From assembly GCA_038741495.1 (NCBI GenBank), contig JAVYKX010000002.1, forward strand, positions 260,541 to 324,540: a DNA stretch of 64,000 nt, read 5' to 3'. Under the pieces are notes generated by a model. The model ran no database searches. It was not told the DNA's origin and saw nothing but the letters and a program-made list of their open reading frames with translations. This document shows, one piece after another, positions 299-47,837 of this stretch. A program made the translations under genes and the position numbers. Every line of letters begins with the position of its first letter. Position 1 is the stretch's first letter. This DNA comes from Thermofilum sp. GTDB taxonomy: Archaea; Thermoproteota; Thermoprotei; Thermofilales; Thermofilaceae.

Positions 299-329
299 AT
301 ACAATAGAAACGAATGATAGGTGGTGGTC

Positions 330-806
330 ATGCTTAGAAGAGGCAGAGATGAAGGAGGGGGGAAGCCTAAGGATTTCTTTGAAGAGCACGAAAAGCTGAG
401 AGCGGAGAAGTCCCGAGCGACGGGCGGTATCTCAGCTCATGATCCGCAACCCTCGCTTCAGAGCAGCGCTCTTCCTTCAGCTTCCCCTGCTCTTCCGTAT
501 GCTTCATCTCCCTTGAGAACAGCCGATCTTCCACTGGATAGACACGTCGATGCTGGTGAACTGGCTTCTGCTAACACAGGCGGTAGCTCTGCAAAGAGTG
601 GTGATCCAAGATACTCCGGCTTGGATGCGCTGATCTCCAGTTTGAGGAGTCTAGGCTACGAGGTAAAGCCTCTAGAAGCATTACGCGAGTATGCAGCTCA
701 GCTAGATGGCGAGGCAGCTAAGCTGTCGCGGGAGATTGAAGAGAAGCGTAAAAGGCTTGAACTTTTACAACAGGCAAGAGAACTTCTACGAAGATTCGGC
801 ATCTAG
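330..806 (+). CDS. Unknown protein with disordered middle and C-terminal coiled coil
   Basis: This 158-residue protein matches no family I recognise. The N-terminus is highly charged. Residues of about 30-90 are rich in Ser, Pro and Ala and probably disordered. The C-terminal 50 residues (from about 100) form a predicted helix and coiled coil rich in Glu, Lys and Arg. I chose the ATG at 330, because GGTGGTGG just upstream can serve as a ribosome binding site; a GTG at 321 is the alternative. It lies between the MinD-like fragment and the secretion ATPase and ends 13 bases before the preferred ATPase start, so it is probably co-transcribed and may be an assembly or adaptor protein of the same system (inference from position only). 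Confidence 0.55.
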   Translation: MLRRGRDEGGGKPKDFFEEHEKLRAEKSRATGGISAHDPQPSLQSSALPSASPALPYASSPLRTADLPLDRHVDAGELASANTGGSSAKSGDPRYSGLDALISSLRSLGYEVKPLEALREYAAQLDGEAAKLSREIEEKRKRLELLQQARELLRRFGI

Positions 807-819
807 GGAAGGCAGCGGG

Positions 820-2814
820 ATGCCGCTCGCAGAAGCTTCCCGGAACTTCTCGAGGGGCAAGCGCTCCGCTACTCCTGGATCCGGGAAGCAGCAGGCCCCG
901 GAAAAGCAAGTTTTCGCTGAATCGATGAGGCTCAGAACCGGGGAGCTGGGACAGGGCGAAGTCGCTCGGAAGAAATCACCGCTCCTCAAGCTTAAGCTGC
1001 TCGGATCTAACTTCCTTCGAATCCCCCATTTCTCCGAAACTGCTCGCGCATCCTCCCAGCCTTGCGAACCCGCCTACCCACTCTGCAGGGAGGAGAAGAA
1101 AATCATAGTATACGCGTGCCGTGACCGGGGCTCGCTAGAGATGATCGAGGCTCTCCGGAGAATACTCGCGAGCTTACCGAGGGAGGAGAGGCCGAAGGTG
1201 AAGCTGAGAGTGCTCAAGCTGCGGGAGCCTTCTCAGCTGCAGACCTACATCGAGCAGCTCGGCGAGCTCTTCGGAGGTGTATACTTGAGAGATTTGAGGA
1301 AGCACGGTATCCGCGCACTCCCAGCAATAGTGGTGGACGGCGAGAAAGTCCTAGAGGGTAGGTACCCCTCTGAGGACGAGCTTAGAGCGCTGCTAGCACC
1401 CGCTCCGCGGCAAGCGCCAGAACTCCCGCCAGAGCAGCGTGCTGAGCAAGCTCCCAGCGGTGGAGAAGCCGCGCCCCAGCACGGCCGGTACTTCCTCCCG
1501 CCACTCGCCACTCCAGAGGGGGCGACGCCGGCTCAGGGGCTTTGCTCCCCATCTTCACCGATGCTTCACCAACAGAGGTTGCCGAAAATTCGCGTGAGGG
1601 ATAAGAATAGGCTCGAGGGCGCTGAGGTGCCGCTGCCTCCCCTCGCGCACGGGAGGGTCGTTAGGACTCCCAGCGGAACCATATTCATCGGTGACGGTGC
1701 CGTGCGAGTGTACGCTGAGCGGGAGGGCGAGTGGGGGCCGCTGCAGCCCCTAGCGGAGTACCCCGGGACGCAGGAGGTCTTTATCCGCGAGCTAGATGGG
1801 GAGGTGTACATCACAGCCGGCATCGAGGGGAGGCGCTACGTGGTTGAGCTGCCCAGGCAGCTCCTCGTCGAAAGGCTGGCCCAGAGAATCGCGATCGAGG
1901 CAGGGATCCCGCTCAGCGAGCGGAACCCGCAGGACAGCGGCGAGTTCAAGGGGTGGCGTGTGAACCTCGCGCTGCCGCAGCTAGCTGGCGGCTGGCAGCT
2001 CTCCGCCGCTAGAGTTGTTAAAGTGGAGCCGTTTAAGGCCGAGCCGCTCCTCCTCGCGAGGCTCGTCGCACTGGCTGCGTCGCCTAACAGTATTACATTC
2101 GTCGGCCCCCCGGGCTCCGGCAAGACCACCGCTCTCATAGGTGTTCTCAGCGCGATCGTTAAACTGTGGCCTAAGCTCCGTGTATCTATAGTTGAGGAGG
2201 AGCCCGAGGTGGCGACGCAGGTTCGGGGGCCGAACGTCGTCACCTACTTCAGCTTCGGCGATAGGAGCGTGACGGCGAACATCAGGGCTACTAGGCGCTA
2301 CGACAGGCCCGACCTCCTGGTGGTAGGCGAGCTGAGGGGCGAGGAGGTGCCCAGCTGGTTCGAGGCAGCTGGCAGCGGCATCCCCGTGCTGACCACGGCG
2401 CACAGCAGTGGCTTTAGGGATGCACTGAAGCGGTTAGATACGCTGATACAGGCTGCGGGTTTGAGAGCTTCTGTCCTAGATGTCGTGAGGGTCTGGGTAG
2501 TGTGCGGGAAAGTGGTGTCATCTGAAGGCGGTGTTCAGCGCGGAGTACAGGCGGTGTACGTTACTACGCCTGAAGGGCTGCAGCCCATCTTCAAGGCGGG
2601 GAGGCACCTGCCGGAGAGGGAGTTCCTGATGCTTCTCCCGCCCGAGCTCCAGCTCGGATTGGAAGGCGCATGCGGCGGTGAGGGCGAGAGCAACGCTGAG
2701 AAAGTCTACGAGCGGCTGAAACAGGTCTTTGGACCTCCCTCGCCCGCTATATTCGAGAAGATGGAACCTCTGCCGTTGAACCTCGTTGAATATGGTGAAG
2801 AAAAATGGGTATAG
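820..2814 (+). CDS. Type II/IV secretion (pilus) ATPase with N-terminal thioredoxin-like domain
   Basis: This hexameric-type ATPase would power assembly of an archaeal type IV pilus or Tad-like machine at the membrane. From the ATG at 820 (preceded by GGGAAGG) the Walker A motif GPPGSGKTT is near residues 429-437. The Walker B-like strand DLLVVGEL follows near 498, with the catalytic-region Glu, and the His-box TTAHSSG is near 525, as in GspE/VirB11/FlaI. The region before the core matches the N-terminal sensor domain of the family. Unusually, residues of about 93-195 form a thioredoxin-like domain with one cysteine (YACRD, Cys near 100) and a cis-Pro type motif (LPAIVVDGEKV). A paralogue is encoded at 45113. 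Residues of about 195-240 are a Pro-rich linker. The open frame extends upstream to 706, overlapping the previous gene, but I regard 820 as the start. Confidence 0.88.
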   Translation: MPLAEASRNFSRGKRSATPGSGKQQAPEKQVFAESMRLRTGELGQGEVARKKSPLLKLKLLGSNFLRIPHFSETARASSQPCEPAYPLCREEKKIIVYACRDRGSLEMIEALRRILASLPREERPKVKLRVLKLREPSQLQTYIEQLGELFGGVYLRDLRKHGIRALPAIVVDGEKVLEGRYPSEDELRALLAPAPRQAPELPPEQRAEQAPSGGEAAPQHGRYFLPPLATPEGATPAQGLCSPSSPMLHQQRLPKIRVRDKNRLEGAEVPLPPLAHGRVVRTPSGTIFIGDGAVRVYAEREGEWGPLQPLAEYPGTQEVFIRELDGEVYITAGIEGRRYVVELPRQLLVERLAQRIAIEAGIPLSERNPQDSGEFKGWRVNLALPQLAGGWQLSAARVVKVEPFKAEPLLLARLVALAASPNSITFVGPPGSGKTTALIGVLSAIVKLWPKLRVSIVEEEPEVATQVRGPNVVTYFSFGDRSVTANIRATRRYDRPDLLVVGELRGEEVPSWFEAAGSGIPVLTTAHSSGFRDALKRLDTLIQAAGLRASVLDVVRVWVVCGKVVSSEGGVQRGVQAVYVTTPEGLQPIFKAGRHLPEREFLMLLPPELQLGLEGACGGEGESNAEKVYERLKQVFGPPSPAIFEKMEPLPLNLVEYGEEKWV

Positions 2815-3054: not shown

Positions 3055-3063
3055 AAATAAATA
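3055..3063 (+). promoter_or_regulatory. TATA box for first pilin gene
   Basis: The sequence AAATAAATA is centred 28 bases before the ATG at 3087. That spacing places the transcription start at or next to the start codon and argues against the upstream in-frame ATG at 3063, which lies inside the box. Confidence 0.6.
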
Positions 3064-3086
3064 TGAAGGACTGCATCTCTGCAACG

Positions 3087-3545
3087 ATGAAAGGCAAGAA
3101 TCCTAGCAGAAGAAGTGGAGCCGTACCTCCTATCGTCACCGTAATCATCGTGGTCGCGAGCGTCGTTGCTGCCGCGCTGGCAGCCTACTTCATCTACTCT
3201 ACAACCGCCAGGGGCGTCAGGCAGGTCTCCCTGACGGTGATAGGGCAGCCCACCCTCTACGCCACCGCGACCGGTGTGGAGCTCAGGGTCACCTTCAAGA
3301 ACGATGGAACAGCCGACGTGGACCTCACCGATTCAATCGTAATCGTTCAGGACGTGAGCAAGCAGGGCGTCGAGTTCAAGAACCCAACGGCCGTGGCGGG
3401 GGCTAGCCTGAAGCTGGCCTCCGGCCAGAGTATCTCCCTCGTCTACACCGCTAGTGCGAGCCTTGACCAGTTTCCCGACGGTGCCCTCGCCACTCTGCAG
3501 ACGAAGGATGGTTACCAAGTTAGCTTCGCGGTAGCCAAGCCATAG
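3087..3545 (+). CDS. Type IV pilin-like protein
   Basis: This 152-residue protein is probably a pilin subunit exported and processed by an archaeal prepilin peptidase. A short positively charged leader (KGKNPSRRSG) is followed by AVPPIVTVIIVVASVVAAAL, a hydrophobic helix of the type III signal peptide kind, and then a beta-rich domain of about 110 residues. I prefer the ATG at 3087 over the one at 3063, because a TATA box is centred 28 bases upstream of 3087, giving a leaderless mRNA. It shares the PP-[IM]-VTV helix start with the next pilin (3771), so the two are paralogues. It is followed by a T-rich stretch that may terminate transcription. Confidence 0.75.
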   Translation: MKGKNPSRRSGAVPPIVTVIIVVASVVAAALAAYFIYSTTARGVRQVSLTVIGQPTLYATATGVELRVTFKNDGTADVDLTDSIVIVQDVSKQGVEFKNPTAVAGASLKLASGQSISLVYTASASLDQFPDGALATLQTKDGYQVSFAVAKP

Positions 3546-3770: not shown

Positions 3771-4202
3771 ATGAGGAGGAGGGGCGGAGTACCCCCCATG
3801 GTGACTGTGCTTGTCACTATAGCTAGTATCGTCGCGGCAAGCCTCGTTGCTTGGTTCCTGTATGCTGCTACTCAGAGCGCGGTTCAGCAGCCGCTGGTGG
3901 AGGTGACAGCTGCTTACGCTATGGGAAGCGGTACTAGCTGGAGAGTCTCAGTGAACTTGAGGAACGTTGGTAGCGTAGACCTTTCCAGCGTCGCTGCCTG
4001 GCTCGAAGTGCCCACGAGCTCTAGCTCTTTTCAGCTGACTTGCACTCCCACCACGCTCAACAAGGGTCAGAGCGCGACGTGCGCCGGACCCGTAACAGCG
4101 GCGCTGAGCGATGGTATGAGCGCTGTCGTGACAGTGCAGGGAACTGACCCGAGCAACCGCCAGCACCGCATACCCCTCGGAGTTAAGCTTACAGTCCCCT
4201 AA
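3771..4202 (+). CDS. Type IV pilin-like protein (second copy)
   Basis: This 143-residue protein has the same plan as the pilin at 3087: a very short basic leader (MRRRG), then GVPPMVTVLVTIASIVAASL forming one hydrophobic helix, then a beta-rich C-terminal domain. The domain contains two Cys (TCTP and TCAG, about 13 residues apart) that could form a disulfide. It has its own TATA box, so the two pilins may be expressed separately from the ATPase operon. It is probably a structural pilus subunit; which of the two is the major one cannot be told from sequence. Confidence 0.75.
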   Translation: MRRRGGVPPMVTVLVTIASIVAASLVAWFLYAATQSAVQQPLVEVTAAYAMGSGTSWRVSVNLRNVGSVDLSSVAAWLEVPTSSSSFQLTCTPTTLNKGQSATCAGPVTAALSDGMSAVVTVQGTDPSNRQHRIPLGVKLTVP

Positions 4203-4240: not shown

Positions 4241-5503
4241 GTGGGCAAGGCTGGCGGCAAGAAAAGTGAAAGCAGCTTCTCGCTCCACACATGGTTCCGC
4301 AGCGAGAGCGACGCCGTGCCGTTGGCTCTCGTGATGCTGTCATCGCCCCAGCTGCCGCTCACCACGCTGAAGGAGGTGCGCCGGTACGGCTTCGACTACC
4401 TTCCGGAGCCGGAGGAGCTGTACTCGGGGGATGCGAAACTGGACGGCTTCTCCGACAAGATGAAGAAGGTGCTGAACGCCGCTGTCGAGACTCAACGCTC
4501 CGGCAGCCGCTCAGCGCTGGAGGAAAAGCTTCGAGACGTGCTAGCGGAGCTGAGGACCACGCTAGAGACAGCCGACTACAACATCTCGAACCTTTACTCG
4601 CTAGTATCGACTTTCACGAGCACGGTGCCCGCCACGATAGTGGCGACAGTGGCTTTGATTGGGGGTGGGGCGGCTTCAACCGCTTTAACTTTAACCATCG
4701 TGGGCTTGATGTTGGCTCTCCTGGCAGGTGTGGTGATCTTCCCTTGGGAGTACGGCGTGCCTTCGCCGCCTTGGCGCACGTACCTGCCCATGCTCGCCGC
4801 GCCCCTGCTCTACCTGCTGTTCACCCACCTGGGGCTTGAGGCGCCGTTGACGCTAGCCCTGGCAGCGGGCTCCGCGCCGACAGCTGCTCTACACTTCTAT
4901 CATTCCCGAGCCGAGCTGAGGAGGCTGGAGAAGGCGAGGGAGATGGTGAGAGTAGCGGCTAGGGCTGTGGGCAACCCCTACCACGCCCTGGTCAGGGAGG
5001 GGCTCATTAGGGATCCTGAGGACTTGCTGAGCCCGGAGTGGAGGGGTTTTGCCAGGGCCGCCACGCTGGGCTTGTGGCAGGTTCTGCTGCACGGCGGCTA
5101 CGAGAACTTGAGGAAGCTGGAGGAGTACATGTCTCAGGTGCTGGGCTTCGTAAGCCGGTTGAGGAGCAAGACGAGAGTCTTCCTGGTTTACGCGCTGGTC
5201 GAGGCGGCGATCGTCGGCGCGATATACGCGGTTGTCATCTCTTCGGGAGCCATCCTGGCCGGGGGCAAAGGAGGTGGGGAGTGGCTCGCCAGGACGGGTA
5301 TCACGGGCGCCGGCGTGCACGAGCTGAGGGAGTGGATCGACCCCATCCTTGCTACCGTCTCGCTGACACTGGCAGCCGCTACTGCTGGAGCTAGGGAGGG
5401 TAGGCCCCACCTCCTGCCGCTCTACCTGCCCTTGTGCGCCGGCGCGGTCTGGCTCGCGTGGCTACTGGCAATCACGTACGCGCCCTACCTGTTCGCGGGG
5501 TGA
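4241..5503 (+). CDS. Type II secretion F / TadC / FlaJ-like membrane platform protein
   Basis: This 420-residue polytopic protein is the likely membrane platform on which the secretion ATPase acts to extrude pilin. A soluble N-terminal region of about 115 residues, partly helical, is followed by hydrophobic segments near residues 125-165 (two helices), 180-215 (one or two), 305-335, and 365-418 (two). A charged cytoplasmic loop at about 220-300 lies between them. That alternation of helical cytoplasmic lobes and membrane pairs is the T2SSF pattern; the assignment rests on topology and context, not on a diagnostic motif. The start is a leaderless GTG. It is directly followed by a small pilin-like gene after four bases. 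Confidence 0.65.
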   Translation: MGKAGGKKSESSFSLHTWFRSESDAVPLALVMLSSPQLPLTTLKEVRRYGFDYLPEPEELYSGDAKLDGFSDKMKKVLNAAVETQRSGSRSALEEKLRDVLAELRTTLETADYNISNLYSLVSTFTSTVPATIVATVALIGGGAASTALTLTIVGLMLALLAGVVIFPWEYGVPSPPWRTYLPMLAAPLLYLLFTHLGLEAPLTLALAAGSAPTAALHFYHSRAELRRLEKAREMVRVAARAVGNPYHALVREGLIRDPEDLLSPEWRGFARAATLGLWQVLLHGGYENLRKLEEYMSQVLGFVSRLRSKTRVFLVYALVEAAIVGAIYAVVISSGAILAGGKGGGEWLARTGITGAGVHELREWIDPILATVSLTLAAATAGAREGRPHLLPLYLPLCAGAVWLAWLLAITYAPYLFAG

Positions 5504-7979: not shown

Positions 7980-7991
7980 CGTGGCGCGAAG

Positions 7992-8000
7992 CTAATAAGG
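7992..8000 (+). promoter_or_regulatory. TATA box for 1110-aa surface gene
   Basis: CTAATAAGG is centred 26 bases before the GTG at 8022. Confidence 0.5.
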
Positions 8001-8021
8001 GTCTGTTTTTTATTTCTAGGC

Positions 8022-11000
8022 GTGGCGGAGCTGAAGCTAGCTCTACTCTTAGTGGTTGCAGCCCTCCTGCTCTCAGCAGCTGCAGCGCTCGCCAGCCCAG
8101 ACCTCGTCCCAGTCACGTGCAAGAGAAGCGACAACTCCACCTACGGCTCCACACCGCTCGCATTCGGCAGCATCGTCGTCAGAGCTGACCCGAACTGGAT
8201 GGTGGATGGCACGTTTGTTGTTAACCCGTTCGCGGCTTCTAATAGTTTTTCCTGGAACCCTGGGCTGTGGCACTTCTTCTACAGGTACTACACCGCCGGC
8301 GTTAGGTGGGCTTCGGGCTCCCAGAATGCTTCGTTCGCCCTGCACGTGGCTCGGCTGAACTTCTCCTACAACTTGACGCTCCTGAACCCCAGCCCCAGCT
8401 ACCAGCCGCCCCCGTGGAGCGTGGCGCGGGTCGATGGGGACAAGTCGTTCGCGTGGCCTAACGGGTGGGGTTGGACGGGTACCGGTAGGGAGTACAGCGA
8501 GCTGCAGACGCTCATCAAGGCTGAAGGCGCCGCGTGGCAGCTAGCCCTCCGCCAGCTAGTCATCGAAGTGACGGTCTACGGGGGGCAGGGCGGCGCAGCA
8601 GTGGAGCCAGGCTACTCGATCTGGCTCAACGTGCAGTGCTACAACGAGACCAGCGGCGGAGGCGGAGGTGGCGGGCAGCCGCCGGGCCAGGGTGTGACGT
8701 TGAAGACCAGCGTCTCGGGGTGCGCGGAGATCGACCCTGCTCCCGGCACCTACAGCTACGCGAAGGGCAGCGCGGTGACAGTGAGGGGTAGGCCGCAGAG
8801 CGGCGCCACCTGGCAGGGGATGTACATCAGGCCGGCGGGGGGCGGCTCGTGGAGCTGGCTCCCCTGCGAGTGGCAGAGCGGCTGGTGCGTCGCCACCGTG
8901 ACCATGGATCAGAGCTACGAGGTGGAGGCTTCCGCGCGCTGCCCGCCGCGAGGCGTGAGAGCGGAGCTCAACTTCACCGCACCCTTCATCCTCTTCGCGA
9001 ACGCGACGATCGTAGACCCGGATGGCAGGGTCACGCGCACGCTCTGGCCCCTCAGCCCCCAGGGCTGGCTCTGGGGCTACGAGCGCAGCATACCCAACCC
9101 CAGCGAGCACGGGCAGTGCTACTCCGTGACCTGGAGCGTCACCCTCAAGCCCCTCGACTACAGCAGGGTAAACTACACAGTGTACAGTTACTTGACTAGC
9201 GGGTACGAGTACGGCCCCAGAGGCTCCCTGCTCGGCGGCAGCCTCACGGCGACAGTGACCATGGGCAAGTGCATGGCAGCTAACCGCGTTGTCTACGCTT
9301 ACGCGACCTTCACCTTCAGCAACGGGACCAGCACAGTCTCAACCTGCGCGGACACCACGTGGTGGAGCAGGTGCCGGTGGTACGCCTTCAAGGATAGAGT
9401 GCACGTCACCCCGCTACCCTCCAACTACACGCTCACCATCCAGGTGTACAAGGCGACGGCGAGCGGAGCAACACTACTGCCAGCGAACGGGACCAGGGTC
9501 AGGGTCGGAAGCGCGGAGTACGCCGCGGATCCGAGCGGGAGGGTGAGCGTTACGCTGCAGCAGGGCAGCTACGAGGTCGAGGTTTTGACGACGTACTACG
9601 GGCCGCAGCTCGCCGCCGAGGGCAGCGTGATCGGCTGGCGCCGCTACCGCTTCTGGAGGTGGAGCGACAACGTCGTGAGCAACCCGAGGACAATCAACCT
9701 CAACCGCGACACGACCCTCACGGTGTACGTCTGGGACGAGAGGGCGCTGCTGGTGAGGTGGGAGCCTCACTTCGACGGCGACGCTTGGGGTGTGGTGAAC
9801 GCGACGAGCGGCGCGCGCTTCAGGCACGGCGAGCTGGTCTGGCTCCCCGTGGGGGGCGAGGCCCGCCTGCTGCCGGTTGAGGGCGGCGGGGCGCTCTTCA
9901 CCTACTGGCTCCTCGGCTCCGAGTGCATTAGGGGCAGCGTGGTGGTCAGCGACCCCTACCTGAAGCTGACCGTCAACCAGACGGGGATCTCGGCCACGGC
10001 GGTCTTCAGGCTCGCAGCCACGAACCAGACCGTGGTGCCCCCGGGAGCGGCCGTGGCGAACCCCATCACCTACGTGCCCGGGACAACCCCCGGAGGGGAG
10101 GAGCGGATGGGCAGGAAAGGCTGGTGGCTAGTCACCGTCACCCATGTTGTAACGAACAAGACCTCGCCTGCTGAAGCGGGGATCGACGAGAAGACCTGGA
10201 TCTACGCTCTGCTCGCGCACGCGAACGGGAGCAGCAGGTGGGCCCCCGTTGCGGGCACGTGGAAGCTGCACCTGGCCCAGGACTGGGACCCCTCGAAGCA
10301 CGTGAGGGATCTGCCGGGCGGGGTGAAGATCATCGAGTGGGATCAGAGCACGGTCAGCGACTTCCCCAAGGTGCAGGAGCCGCAGGAGTGGAGGGACTGG
10401 TACTTCGTCACTCTAGCAGCCTGGAGGACAGTTTTCGAGGAGGCGGGCGGCACCTACAACACCGCGGGGCTCTGGCTGGAGAACGGCACCACCCTCGCTT
10501 TGTACAATATCTCGTTCACCTACATGGGTGTGAACGGTAGCCAGGTGGAGTACGCTTTCTGGCAGCCCCTCACCGTCTCCACCCTGACCTTCAGGGCTGA
10601 AGCTGTTTACACTCTGACCAGCCATGTGGCCGCTCCGCCAGGGAGGCGCAGCATTTACATGTACATCTACGTGAACGCCACGTGGAAGTACGTTCCGCCG
10701 CAGCGGTGGCAGCTCCTCGGCTTCAAAGTGCACGCTCCGCAGCTCGGCTTCCTCGCAGTTCTAGACGCGCCGGGCTGCGGTAAAGTTGACTGCGTAGGGT
10801 ACTGGGCCCCGCCATCGCAGACCGGGGCGACCTGGAGGCTCTACGTCATCAGCTTGGGAGACACGGAGGACTTCTACGCGAAGCCGTACCCGAGCGGCCT
10901 CTTCGGCGACGGCTACAGCAGCGTGAGGGAGTTTAGGCTATCCATGAGGTGGCTCGGGGCCGGCGGCAGGCCCTCAACCCTGATCTGGGGCAGCGACAAG

Positions 11001-11354
11001 GTCACCTTCAGGCTGGCGCCAGCCTCGGTGTACAGGCTGGACTGGGCTGATCCTAGAGGCCCGTTCACCGCGACGTGGGGCTGCTTCGCCCAAGGGCCCT
11101 CAGGCTTGACGCCCATCTCGTCCTACAAGGCGGACATCACGTTCGACTGGGGCGCCACGGGCAGCACGCACCCGCTTAAAGGCAGCCAGGTCTTCAAGGG
11201 GGTGAGCCCGCCGGCAACCCTGCACGTGCAAGTCCCGGCTGACGACTGGATCGCCTTCTACCCGATCCCGGAGGGAGGGAGGTACGCGATCGCGCAGGGC
11301 GCTTTGGTGCCGGTGCCGCTCGTAGCCAAGTACCCGCCGAGAGCGGGAGGCTAG
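8022..11354 (+). CDS. Large secreted glycoprotein / adhesin-like protein
   Basis: This 1110-residue protein begins with a Sec-type signal peptide (about residues 1-25, ending AALAS). It is rich in Trp, Tyr, Ser and Thr and carries many N-glycosylation sequons. A Gly-rich linker lies near residue 212. Several sections resemble the repeats of the 6582 protein, for example one ending DQSYEVEAS and one ending GISATAVFR. No C-terminal membrane helix is visible, so anchoring must be through other proteins. The size, secretion signal and position beside pilin genes suggest a pilus-associated adhesin or sheath protein; substrate and partner cannot be told. It is followed by pilin-like genes with a separate promoter. 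Confidence 0.65.
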   Translation: MAELKLALLLVVAALLLSAAAALASPDLVPVTCKRSDNSTYGSTPLAFGSIVVRADPNWMVDGTFVVNPFAASNSFSWNPGLWHFFYRYYTAGVRWASGSQNASFALHVARLNFSYNLTLLNPSPSYQPPPWSVARVDGDKSFAWPNGWGWTGTGREYSELQTLIKAEGAAWQLALRQLVIEVTVYGGQGGAAVEPGYSIWLNVQCYNETSGGGGGGGQPPGQGVTLKTSVSGCAEIDPAPGTYSYAKGSAVTVRGRPQSGATWQGMYIRPAGGGSWSWLPCEWQSGWCVATVTMDQSYEVEASARCPPRGVRAELNFTAPFILFANATIVDPDGRVTRTLWPLSPQGWLWGYERSIPNPSEHGQCYSVTWSVTLKPLDYSRVNYTVYSYLTSGYEYGPRGSLLGGSLTATVTMGKCMAANRVVYAYATFTFSNGTSTVSTCADTTWWSRCRWYAFKDRVHVTPLPSNYTLTIQVYKATASGATLLPANGTRVRVGSAEYAADPSGRVSVTLQQGSYEVEVLTTYYGPQLAAEGSVIGWRRYRFWRWSDNVVSNPRTINLNRDTTLTVYVWDERALLVRWEPHFDGDAWGVVNATSGARFRHGELVWLPVGGEARLLPVEGGGALFTYWLLGSECIRGSVVVSDPYLKLTVNQTGISATAVFRLAATNQTVVPPGAAVANPITYVPGTTPGGEERMGRKGWWLVTVTHVVTNKTSPAEAGIDEKTWIYALLAHANGSSRWAPVAGTWKLHLAQDWDPSKHVRDLPGGVKIIEWDQSTVSDFPKVQEPQEWRDWYFVTLAAWRTVFEEAGGTYNTAGLWLENGTTLALYNISFTYMGVNGSQVEYAFWQPLTVSTLTFRAEAVYTLTSHVAAPPGRRSIYMYIYVNATWKYVPPQRWQLLGFKVHAPQLGFLAVLDAPGCGKVDCVGYWAPPSQTGATWRLYVISLGDTEDFYAKPYPSGLFGDGYSSVREFRLSMRWLGAGGRPSTLIWGSDKVTFRLAPASVYRLDWADPRGPFTATWGCFAQGPSGLTPISSYKADITFDWGATGSTHPLKGSQVFKGVSPPATLHVQVPADDWIAFYPIPEGGRYAIAQGALVPVPLVAKYPPRAGG

Positions 11355-43924: not shown

Positions 43925-44408
43925 GCTGGTGATCGTCGACGGGATGCTCGGGAAGCTGGCACGGTGGCTTAGAATGCTAGGCGTACCAGCTCTCTACAAG
44001 GGGGTCTGGGGCGATGAGGAGCTGCTGGAGCTAGCGCAAGGGGAGGGGGTTTTGCTCTTGACGCGGGATAAGGAGCTCGCGCGCAAGGCAAGAAGCGCAG
44101 GCTTGAGCGCGCTCCTCTTACCCCAGGCGGAGGTCGAAGATCTTCTCGCAGTAGTCTTGCCGGCGCTCGGCAGGGAGCCTGTTTTCGACCAGAGGAGCGC
44201 GCTCTGCCCACTGTGCGGGTCGGCGCTGAGCCCTGCGGGCAGGGATGAGGTCGCGAGGAGGGTTCCCCAAAGGATTCTCGCCGTTTATAGCGAGTTCTAC
44301 ATGTGCACGAAGTGCGGACAAGTTTATTGGGCTGGATCGCACATGAGGCAGATCGAGGCCACTCTCGAGAGGGTGAGGCGGATTGCTTACGGGAAAATTG
44401 TCTGCTGA
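43914..44408 (+). CDS. Mut7-C RNase-domain protein with zinc ribbon
   Basis: This 164-residue protein of the Mut7-C family (PIN-like fold) is a predicted RNase. The family start IVDGMLGKLARWLRMLG is clear, with the acidic VDG, DEELLELA and TRDKELARKA motifs. The C-terminal half is a zinc ribbon (CPLCGS and CTKCGQ). It starts with a TTG overlapping the preceding gene by 11 bases. RNA cleavage is inferred from the family. Confidence 0.85.
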   Translation: MKYRLVIVDGMLGKLARWLRMLGVPALYKGVWGDEELLELAQGEGVLLLTRDKELARKARSAGLSALLLPQAEVEDLLAVVLPALGREPVFDQRSALCPLCGSALSPAGRDEVARRVPQRILAVYSEFYMCTKCGQVYWAGSHMRQIEATLERVRRIAYGKIVC

Positions 44409-45036
44409 AGAAGGAGCGTTCCTCGTAAGGCTTGCAAGAAGGGCTGTAGAGACTTACCTGAAGAACGCGGTGATCATCGACCCTCCGCCCGAAACTCCTC
44501 CTAGTCTCATGCAGGAGAGCGGAGCGTTCGTGACAATCGAGGCTTTACGGCTGGACAGGTTCACTGGCAGAGTTAGGAGGGAGCTGAGGGGCTGCATCGG
44601 CTACCCTGAACCCCTGCTCCCCCTCGCCGAGGCGGTAATCAGGGCGGCGATAGCAGCCGCTACAGAGGATCCCAGGTTCCCTCCGCTCACCCCTCGCGAG
44701 CTCGACAACGTGATCTTCGAAGTGAGCGTGCTCACACCTCCTCAGCTGGTCCACTACCGGGAGCCCGCCGAGCTCCTCGAGAAAGTGAAAGTTGGCCGGG
44801 ACGGGCTGATGGTCGAGCTCGGCGGAGCTCGGGGTCTCCTGCTGCCGCAGGTCCCCGTCGAGGAAGGGTGGAGTGTCGAGAAGTTTCTCAGCTACGCTTG
44901 CCTGAAGGCCGGGCTGCCGGAGGATGCTTGGAAGACTAGCCGCTTGAGGGTCTACACTTTCCAGGCCCAGATCTTCGTCGAAGCGACGCCGGGCGGCGAC
45001 GTTGTTGAAAGAGTGCTGGAGCCTCTTCACGAGTGA
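44398..45036 (+). CDS. AMMECR1-family protein
   Basis: This protein of about 212 residues is widely conserved in archaea and eukaryotes, function unproven. The family signature RRELRGCIGYPEPLLPLAE and IRAAIAAATEDPRFPPLTP is exact. Length fits. The start is a TTG at 44398 overlapping the previous stop, or the upstream TTG at 44383. It ends the overlapping operon with RqcH and Mut7-C. Confidence 0.9.
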   Translation: MSAEEGAFLVRLARRAVETYLKNAVIIDPPPETPPSLMQESGAFVTIEALRLDRFTGRVRRELRGCIGYPEPLLPLAEAVIRAAIAAATEDPRFPPLTPRELDNVIFEVSVLTPPQLVHYREPAELLEKVKVGRDGLMVELGGARGLLLPQVPVEEGWSVEKFLSYACLKAGLPEDAWKTSRLRVYTFQAQIFVEATPGGDVVERVLEPLHE

Positions 45037-45112
45037 ATGCTTCGAGCAATAGCTTAATTACGGCGTTTCTCGCAGTAGAGCGTGGAAGGGCTCTAGTGGT
45101 GAAGCCGCGTTG

Positions 45113-45988
45113 GTGAAGGAGATAAGGCTCTACCTGTGCCGCGACGAGAAGTCGGGCGAGATGCTCGAAGCTTTCCGCAGGGAGCTGAACCTCCTGCCCC
45201 GGGAGAGCCGCCCGAAGCTCAAAGCGAAGGTACTCAAGCTTCGGAACCCTTCAGGGTTCGAGCAGTACGTGAGAGAGCTGGAGGAGCTTTTCGGCGGCCT
45301 TTACGTTGAGGAGTTCAAAAAGTACGGAATTCGCGCCGTGCCTGCTGTCGTAGTAGACGGCGAGAAGCTGTTTGAAGGAAAGTACCTCACCAGGGACGAG
45401 ATCAGGTCCCTCCTGGGTCTTCAGCCCGCGCAACCCCAGCCTGCCCAGCCCCCTCCAGCATCTCGGCCACCGCAACCTGCAGCGCAGCCACCCGCGAAGC
45501 CCTTCGAGCTAACTCCAGTAGAGCTTGTTCCACCGGAGGAAGAGCAGCTTCCCGAACTGAAGCCCGAGCCGAGACCCACGCCGCCTATCCTCCAGCCTGC
45601 GAGAGCGACACCTGAGAGGGCTACTCCCGGAGAAGCGCGGAAAGTTGCGCCTCAGCCTCCCACCCGGGTAGAGCCGAGGAGAGAAGAGCTGCCTGAGGAA
45701 CCGTTCGTCATAGAGCCAATCAAGGTTGAACCGGTAAAGGCTCCTCAGCCGGGCAAGCCTGCACAGCAGCAAGCAGCTCCGCCCCCCCTAGCCCCCGAGC
45801 CCAGGAGGGCTGCAGCCCCCCAGCAACCTCCCGCGCCGCGACCTGCCGCTGAAGCGCCGCAAGCTCCGGCGGCGAAGTTCTCTTGCTATACTTGCATCCA
45901 CTTCAACCCCGAGCGTTCCCGCTGTAGGCTTCTCCACATACCTGTCCCCGACCCGAACTCACCGCCATGCGGTAGAGGTAGGCGCTAA
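45113..45988 (+). CDS. Thioredoxin-like domain protein with Pro-rich linker and C-terminal Cys motif
   Basis: This 291-residue protein has an N-terminal domain (about 1-103) strikingly similar to the one fused to the pilus ATPase at 820. Both share a single Cys followed by Arg-Asp (YLCRD, Cys 9), the segment LFGG-[LV]-Y, and the cis-Pro type motif (VPAVVVDGEKLFEGKY, Pro 77). The two domains appear more than half identical by eye. Residues of about 105-250 are Pro/Gln/Ala-rich linker. The C-terminus (from 258) has four Cys spaced C-x2-C-x9-C-x14-C, likely a zinc or Fe-S site. Start is the GTG at 45113 (a TTG just before is possible). Function is unknown. Confidence 0.75.
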   Translation: MKEIRLYLCRDEKSGEMLEAFRRELNLLPRESRPKLKAKVLKLRNPSGFEQYVRELEELFGGLYVEEFKKYGIRAVPAVVVDGEKLFEGKYLTRDEIRSLLGLQPAQPQPAQPPPASRPPQPAAQPPAKPFELTPVELVPPEEEQLPELKPEPRPTPPILQPARATPERATPGEARKVAPQPPTRVEPRREELPEEPFVIEPIKVEPVKAPQPGKPAQQQAAPPPLAPEPRRAAAPQQPPAPRPAAEAPQAPAAKFSCYTCIHFNPERSRCRLLHIPVPDPNSPPCGRGRR

Positions 45989-46034: not shown

Positions 46035-47837
46035 GTGGCTAGCGATCTCCCGTACAGCGTTCTAGTAGATTTCTACGAGAAGATCGAGGAGACCACTAGC
46101 AGGATAGCTATGACCGACTACCTTGTCGCGCTCTTCAAAAAGACTCCAACCGAAATGCTTGACAAGGTCATTTACCTCACGCAGGGGCAGCTGAGGCCTG
46201 ACTTCGAGGGAGTTGAGCTGGGGGTAGCGGAGAAGCTGTGCCTCCGCGCGATCGCGAAAGCCGGAGGAATACCGCTCTCGACTGTTGAGGAGCTTTACAA
46301 GAAGCTTGGAGACGCCGGCCTCGTGGCTGAGACTCTGCTTTCGAAGCCGAAGCAGAGCGCAAGCCTCCTAGGCTTCCTGGGTGTTGAGGAGCAGCGAGCG
46401 GAGCTCACAGTATCTCAGGTCTACAACGCGCTGATGCGTATAGCCCTAGCGAGCGGAGAGGGTGCTCAGGAGGTCAAGGTGGGGACGCTTTCCTCCCTCT
46501 TATCGAGCGCGAAGCCGAAGGAAGCTAAGTATATCGTCAGGACGGTGACCGGCAAGCTAAGGCTCGGCATCGCCGACATGACGATCCTGGACGCCCTCGC
46601 GGTTGCTTTCACCGGCAGCAAAGCGGCGCGCGACGTGGTCGAGAAGGCTTACACGAAGCACCCAGACCTCGGCCACATTGCCCGTTTGCTAGCTGAGAAA
46701 GGGCTTGACGCTGTGAGAAACATCAAGGTTACCGTAGGCATACCAGTTTTACCCATGCTTGCCGAGAGGCTCGCGGACCCCAGAGAGATTCTCGCCAAGC
46801 TCGGCGGAACCTGCCTGGCGGAGTACAAGTACGACGGGGAGAGAGTCCAGGTTCACAAGAAAGGCGATAAGGTGCTTCTCTTCAGCAGAAGGCTCGAGAA
46901 CATTACCCACCACTACCCGGATGTTGTCGAAAGCATGCAGAGGTTGAAGGCGGGCGAGTGCATCGTAGAGGGGGAGATCGTCGCCTACAGTCCTGATACC
47001 GGGGACCTCCTCCCCTTCCAGGAGCTCATGCACAGGAGGAGGAAGTACGACGTTGAAAGAGCTATGAAAGAGTACCCGGTAAAGGTCTACTTGTTCGACG
47101 CAATCTACGTCGACGGGGAGGAGCTGATCGATAGGCCTCTCTCCGAGAGAAGGAAGATCCTCGAGAGCATCGTGCCCGAGGGGGACGAGAACCTCCTTCT
47201 CTCGAAATCTAAGGTGGTCTCGGACCCTAGGGAGCTAGTCCTCTTCTTCGAAGAAGCCGTCAGCGATGGCTGCGAAGGTATCATGTGCAAGTCTCTCGCT
47301 CAGCAGAGCGTCTACCAGATGGGGGCTCGAGGCTGGCTCTGGATCAAGTTCAAGCGCGATTACCGCATGGAGATGACTGATACTGTCGACCTAGTCGTCG
47401 TGGGCGCTTTCCACGGCCGCGGTAAGAGAGCTGGCGCGTACGGCGCTCTCCTCATGGCGGCTTATGACCCCAAAAACGATGTCTTCAAGACTGTCTGCAA
47501 AGTTGGAAGCGGTTTCACCGACGAAGACTTAGCAAAGCTACCTAGCCTGCTTGAGCCCTACCGGATACCCCACAGGCACCCGAGAGTGTTCTCGAAAATG
47601 GACGCTGACGTCTGGTTTGTACCGGCCGTTGTTCTCGAGGTTATAGGAGCCGAGATCACTTTGAGCCCTCTTCACACATGCGCTTTGGGGGCCCTCGAGG
47701 AGGGAGCAGGCCTTGCAATTCGTTTTCCCAGGTTCACGGGCAGGTACAGGCTCGACAAAAAACCCGAGCAGGCGACGACAGAGGACGAGCTCGTGGAGAT
47801 GTACAAAGCTCAGAGGAAAACTGCCCTACCAAGCTAG
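46035..47837 (+). CDS. lig: ATP-dependent DNA ligase
   Basis: This 600-residue archaeal replicative ligase seals nicks via an adenylated lysine. The catalytic motif KYDGERVQ has Lys at about residue 265. Other nucleotidyltransferase motifs are visible (RRLENITHHYPD, VEGEIVAY, EGIMCKS, WIKFKRDY). An N-terminal DNA-binding domain (about 1-240) and C-terminal OB domain are present. Length is typical. The stop shares CTAG with the stop of the convergent gene. Confidence 0.96.
   Translation: MASDLPYSVLVDFYEKIEETTSRIAMTDYLVALFKKTPTEMLDKVIYLTQGQLRPDFEGVELGVAEKLCLRAIAKAGGIPLSTVEELYKKLGDAGLVAETLLSKPKQSASLLGFLGVEEQRAELTVSQVYNALMRIALASGEGAQEVKVGTLSSLLSSAKPKEAKYIVRTVTGKLRLGIADMTILDALAVAFTGSKAARDVVEKAYTKHPDLGHIARLLAEKGLDAVRNIKVTVGIPVLPMLAERLADPREILAKLGGTCLAEYKYDGERVQVHKKGDKVLLFSRRLENITHHYPDVVESMQRLKAGECIVEGEIVAYSPDTGDLLPFQELMHRRRKYDVERAMKEYPVKVYLFDAIYVDGEELIDRPLSERRKILESIVPEGDENLLLSKSKVVSDPRELVLFFEEAVSDGCEGIMCKSLAQQSVYQMGARGWLWIKFKRDYRMEMTDTVDLVVVGAFHGRGKRAGAYGALLMAAYDPKNDVFKTVCKVGSGFTDEDLAKLPSLLEPYRIPHRHPRVFSKMDADVWFVPAVVLEVIGAEITLSPLHTCALGALEEGAGLAIRFPRFTGRYRLDKKPEQATTEDELVEMYKAQRKTALPS

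Follow-up and report, generated by a model that had tools for sequence, protein, structure and literature searches.

Pilus ATPases of the T2SSE family are hexameric and drive pilus assembly with ATP, and the pilus systems of the archaeal group considered here are known to evolve quickly. The thioredoxin fold is characterized by a typical cis-proline face, and protein binding is a general property of this fold. Thermoproteales-specific clades of archaeal pilus ATPases have been described, and the subclade 4D ATPases of Pyrobaculum and Thermoproteus carry a small cysteine-containing N-terminal domain, which provides a precedent for extra domains in these proteins (Makarova et al., 2016; PMC4858521). 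No thioredoxin-like domain on ATPases is reported in that study, and the literature that we searched contained no description of a fusion of this kind.

Here we analyze a window of 64,000 nucleotides from Thermofilum sp. (assembly GCA_038741495.1, contig JAVYKX010000002.1, positions 260,541 to 324,540 of the forward strand) that encodes a predicted pilus ATPase of this kind. As in other archaeal type IV pilus assembly ATPases of the T2SSE/CpaF-TadA-VirB11 superfamily, a T2SSE core with Walker A and B motifs is present, and the locus includes a gene with weak MinD/ParA-like similarity as well as genes for predicted pilin-like proteins and a predicted TadC-like membrane protein. The protein differs from them in an additional thioredoxin-like domain within its linker, which is missing in the five closest orthologs with readable N-termini. 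The explanation that we favor, and regard as fairly likely, is that a single lineage acquired a duplicated thioredoxin-fold domain, without catalytic function, in the linker of its pilus ATPase, where the domain probably serves as a tethered protein-binding module.

The pilus-type locus and its predicted ATPase

The ATPase frame is unbroken, with 664 codons and a stop, and yields a protein of 664 residues. The ATG at 820 is likely to be the start codon, since orthologs in three relatives (G012, G016 and G004) begin with MPL or VPL at the matching place, right after the stop of the upstream gene; the frame itself is open upstream as far as position 706, overlapping the preceding gene. (G000 denotes the genome of the window; the other genomes are labelled G002, G003, G004, G009, G012, G015 and G016, and two genera g4 and g7.) Profile and structure searches identify the product as a predicted type II/IV secretion (archaeal pilus) ATPase. 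Its C-terminal part matches Pfam T2SSE (PF00437) above the cutoff (E 2.7e-15) and CpaF is matched in the PDB (E 5e-8), while the NCBIfam TadA-family (TadA-type) model yields a match (E 2.6e-19) that lies below that model's cutoff. The Walker A and Walker B-like motifs (Table 1) place the protein among those with a T2SSE core.

Both sides of the fused domain are formed by low-complexity linkers without predicted structure. AlphaFold assigns zero secondary structure to residues 1-92, at a pLDDT of about 25-30, and almost none to the second linker; the model of the whole protein has a mean pLDDT of 35, too low for contacts between domain and core to be read from it. The locus runs from the MinD/ParA-like gene through the 321-806 gene and the ATPase to two pilin-like genes and a gene for a TadC-like membrane protein, an order that is largely syntenic in relatives. 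The labels of the pilin-like and TadC-like proteins, for which no Pfam family scores above its cutoff, follow sequence appearance and position. The same pilus locus holds, at 7980-11354 of the window, a gene for a predicted protein of 1,124 amino acids that is weakly similar to proteins of related pilus loci and has no Pfam match.

Table 1. Features of the ATPase locus and of the locus of the stand-alone homologue, in window coordinates.
Feature	Position	Strand	Basis
Upstream gene, weak MinD/ParA-like similarity	-388 to 298		Weak similarity
Upstream gene, charged, probably coiled-coil C-terminal end	321..806	+	Adjoins ATPase in relatives too
Predicted secretion/pilus-assembly ATPase (T2SSE, CpaF/TadA/VirB11-like) with N-terminal thioredoxin-like domain	820..2814	+	Pfam, NCBIfam, PDB, conserved start
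First N-terminal linker of ATPase, without predicted structure, variable in orthologs	820..1083	+	AlphaFold, ortholog comparison
Predicted thioredoxin-fold domain inserted in ATPase, residues 93-192	1096..1395	+	Identity to 45110 domain, Thioredoxin_3, model, Foldseek
Second linker, Pro-rich, from thioredoxin-like domain to ATPase core	1396..1608	+	Sequence, orthologs (core similarity begins here), model
ATPase core, Walker A GPPGSGKTT, Walker B-like DLLVVGE	1609..2811	+	66-82% identical to orthologs without thioredoxin-like domain
Predicted type IV pilin-like protein	3063..3545	+	Class III-like N-terminal hydrophobic segment; syntenic in relatives
Second predicted pilin-like protein	3771..4202	+	Sequence; syntenic in relatives
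Predicted membrane platform protein (TadC-like)	4241..5503	+	Hydrophobic segments, position, synteny
AMMECR1 protein, conserved upstream neighbor of stand-alone gene	44383..45036	+	Pfam AMMECR1 E 1e-54, synteny
Stand-alone homologue: thioredoxin-like domain (45110-45421), Pro-rich linker, C-terminal 4-Cys tail	45110..45988	+
ATP-dependent DNA ligase, conserved downstream neighbor of stand-alone gene	46035..47837	+	Pfam DNA_ligase_A_M E 4e-64, synteny

A domain shared with a stand-alone protein

The original prediction held that a thioredoxin-like domain on the ATPase has a paralogue at another locus, and called for an alignment of the two. This alignment bears the claim out: residues 93-192 of the ATPase and residues 3-102 of the 45110 protein align without gaps, with 58 of 100 positions identical, and the alignment score of 308 stands against a mean of 18 (SD 6.9) and a maximum of 60 in 2,000 shuffles. 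When the whole genome is searched with the 45110 domain, the ATPase is the sole other significant match (E 7e-35), and the next has an E of 0.29.

The stand-alone protein belongs to an unnamed thioredoxin-like/4-Cys family linked to AMMECR1. Its four-cysteine tail (CxxC-x8-9-RC-..-PxxPC, at 45881-45985) has no match in Pfam, NCBIfam or the PDB. Upstream of the 45110 gene lie genes for Mut7-C and AMMECR1 and downstream the ATP-dependent DNA ligase; genes of this type adjoin AMMECR1, and often the ligase too, in Thermofilales as well as in several genomes from other families within the class. Of the 81 genomes of the class, 62 are matched by a profile of the domain. The ATPase has the domain in common with this family, whereas it lies in a pilus locus and lacks the CxxC..RC..PxxPC tail, which places it outside the family as so defined. 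The neighborhood of the 45110 gene is thus not that of a secretion locus, and we reject the proposal that the domain is a docking module common to two secretion systems. In genera g7 and g4 (L067, L068, L070, L071) two stand-alone copies are found, a short one beside the DNA ligase gene and a longer one elsewhere.

Predicted fold of the domain

Both window copies score above the gathering threshold of Pfam Thioredoxin_3, a profile that 13 of 15 family members match at an E of 0.01 or better. AlphaFold models of the two copies show a beta-alpha-beta-alpha-beta-beta-alpha arrangement in thioredoxin order at moderate confidence (mean pLDDT 74), and in a Foldseek search with the domain model ArsD ranks highest (E 1.4e-4), followed by MTH895 and numerous thioredoxins. 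The TM-scores are mostly 0.40-0.52, and the fold assignment therefore leans on profiles and topology together. Taken jointly, these results support a predicted thioredoxin fold for the fused domain, with a predicted cis-proline before strand 3; the model thus agrees with the thioredoxin-like character first proposed for it.

Two described groups come closest. With the Thioredoxin_3/MTH895 (TIGR00412) small thioredoxins the domain shares the C-terminal half with its cis-proline motif alPAvVvdGekvleG; it differs from them in lacking CxxC and in the greater length of the segment that separates strand 2 from the cis-proline strand, and scores below the TIGR00412 cutoff. The arsenic metallochaperone ArsD resembles it in layout, including an extra helical segment before the cis-proline; the ArsD cysteine cluster is missing here and the domain falls below the Pfam ArsD cutoff.

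Distribution and history of the fusion

The fusion was proposed not to be standard for archaeal secretion ATPases, and its distribution confirms this. Five orthologs (G012, G016, G004, G009 and G015), 66-82% identical over the core and encoded in loci largely syntenic with that of the window, have variable, low-complexity N-terminal linkers without the domain, so we reject the idea that it is a regular part of archaeal GspE ATPases. A run of N breaks the coding frame of the G015 ATPase, but its upstream gene and the core are separated by about 280 bases, which leaves no room for the domain. In a sixth ortholog (G002) the contig ends about 50 residues before the core, leaving the N-terminus unreadable; a search of this entire, incomplete genome found no copy of the domain. 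The orthologs retain both the start codon of the ATPase and the end of the upstream gene, and the domain was therefore either inserted in the linker or lost in all others.

Among 398 genomes of the phylum, to which the search was directed, no other carries this domain on an ATPase. Frames of more than 400 codons with the domain are the ATPase of the window's genome (702), one in G003 (416) and one in G012; the last, a frame of 433 amino acids (L074:2917-4218, G012:C2) with the appearance of another enzyme fused to the thioredoxin-like domain, was rejected as a second fusion because a run of N connects what are two genes. The G003 protein of 416 codons (L072:2961-4211, G003:C2) combines the same thioredoxin-like domain with hydrophobic segments, a zinc ribbon and a MarR-like helix-turn-helix. 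A search of genome contigs with the ATPase returned three near relatives (Thermofilum and Thermofilaceae genomes) and one distant match, and in plasmids the matches cover the ATPase core alone, in unrelated ATPases. The suggestion of an undescribed arrangement thus stands insofar as the fusion is real and unusual, although it is found in one genome only: as a domain architecture it is new, but of a kind already known, and so far it is a one-genome curiosity.

Stand-alone copies from the same archaeal family are the closest to the fused domain, at 54% identity to the copy of its own genome in the padded alignment and then 49-47%, and the domain branches among them with a weakly supported placement. 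Because it is not firmly grouped with the genome's own 45110 copy and the branch order is weak, the fusion may instead be older and have been lost in other genomes, or the donor may have been a different genome. The locus itself may have a separate history. The ATPase core is 82% identical to genus g7 (G012) and 74-76% to its own genus, while the relation is reversed for the DNA ligase, at 79-80% to its own genus and 68-71% to g7. This hints that the pilus locus (window -388 to 5503; G000:C2 260153-266043) may have passed from one genus to another and acquired the domain afterwards, a transfer that the ATPase tree does not resolve.

A proposed tethered binding module and its alternatives

In the scenario that we favor, the thioredoxin-fold domain of the conserved AMMECR1-linked protein, represented in this genome by 45110, would have been duplicated, and in one Thermofilum lineage a copy would have entered the N-terminal linker of the ATPase, which is long, poorly conserved and probably disordered, without disturbing the reading frame. 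The gene would have kept its ATPase core, its start codon and its neighbors as they are in relatives. Tethered to each subunit of what is a hexamer in this family, the domain would most likely bind protein via its cis-proline face, and may help to bring in or retain a partner or a component of the pilus platform. Homology, architecture, phyletic distribution, the lack of CxxC and a computed thioredoxin-like fold are results of the analysis; we infer both the direction of the event, duplication followed by insertion, and the binding function. A thioredoxin fold lacking the active site, on two flexible linkers of a hexameric motor, makes a protein-binding module the simplest role.

It is rather unlikely that the insertion is a neutral or recent accident, in which a duplicated domain came to lie in a tolerant linker without a particular role and may be slowly decaying. 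Its occurrence in a single genome and its position in a variable linker would fit such an origin, as would its longer end branch in the tree (0.69, vs 0.39 for the 45110 copy) and the alteration of 8 of 25 family-conserved positions, 17 being kept. The frame and the fold-defining residues have nonetheless persisted despite 42% divergence from the nearest copy, part of which may predate the fusion. Differences between the two window copies favor third codon positions (37/20/59), with a dN of 0.34 and a dS of about 2.9 by NG86; the copies therefore diverged under protein-level constraint, which, with dS saturated, is no more than suggested for the fused copy by itself.

The original prediction also raised the idea of a redox or ligand sensor. 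In such a sensor the cysteine, perhaps together with two preceding ones, would switch pilus assembly by being oxidized or, as ArsD does, by binding a metal(loid). ArsD being the best fold match, the presence of the cysteine in both window copies and the cysteine-containing N-terminal domain reported for subclade 4D pilus ATPases (PMC4858521) speak for it. The description of a single cysteine holds within the domain core, but two further cysteines (PCEPAYPLC) lie just ahead of the domain in the ATPase, at its N-terminal edge, which may equally be counted in favor. The family alignment nevertheless leads us to reject a single-cysteine sensor as the main reading, and we judge a sensory role quite improbable. 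Placed at the end of strand 1, the YxCRD cysteine is away from the catalytic place and outside any CxxC. It is found in 11 of 20 Thermofilales copies, with proline, glycine or alanine in the other 9; homologues in the same genus have proline in four other genomes and cysteine in one, and the second stand-alone copies of g7 and g4 carry tyrosine. CxxC is absent from both window copies and from every alignment row except one distant classical thioredoxin. The domain thus has neither the CxxC or CxxS active site of redox-active thioredoxins nor the conserved vicinal cysteines with which ArsD binds As(III), its one core cysteine being variable in the family. Without CxxC, the fused domain should not be a redox enzyme, and the variability of the cysteine speaks against a conserved redox or metal role.

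A regulator that couples pilus assembly to the AMMECR1-linked housekeeping pathway, for instance through competition with the 45110 protein over a common partner or as a sensor of metal or redox state, seems to us a very doubtful reading. That the two parts do not form one protein in the cell, owing to an assembly chimera or an annotation artefact, would agree with the occurrence in a single genome, but is extremely improbable given a frame open throughout in the middle of a 550-kb contig, flanks that are both syntenic with relatives and a domain 42% different from 45110.

Implications

Altogether, the finding gives no support to a general redox-sensing secretion ATPase. If gained as we propose, the insertion offers a clean example of a folded domain acquired in the disordered linker of a pilus motor. 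As a lead, the unnamed, widely conserved thioredoxin-like/4-Cys protein whose gene adjoins those of AMMECR1 and DNA ligase may be more useful.
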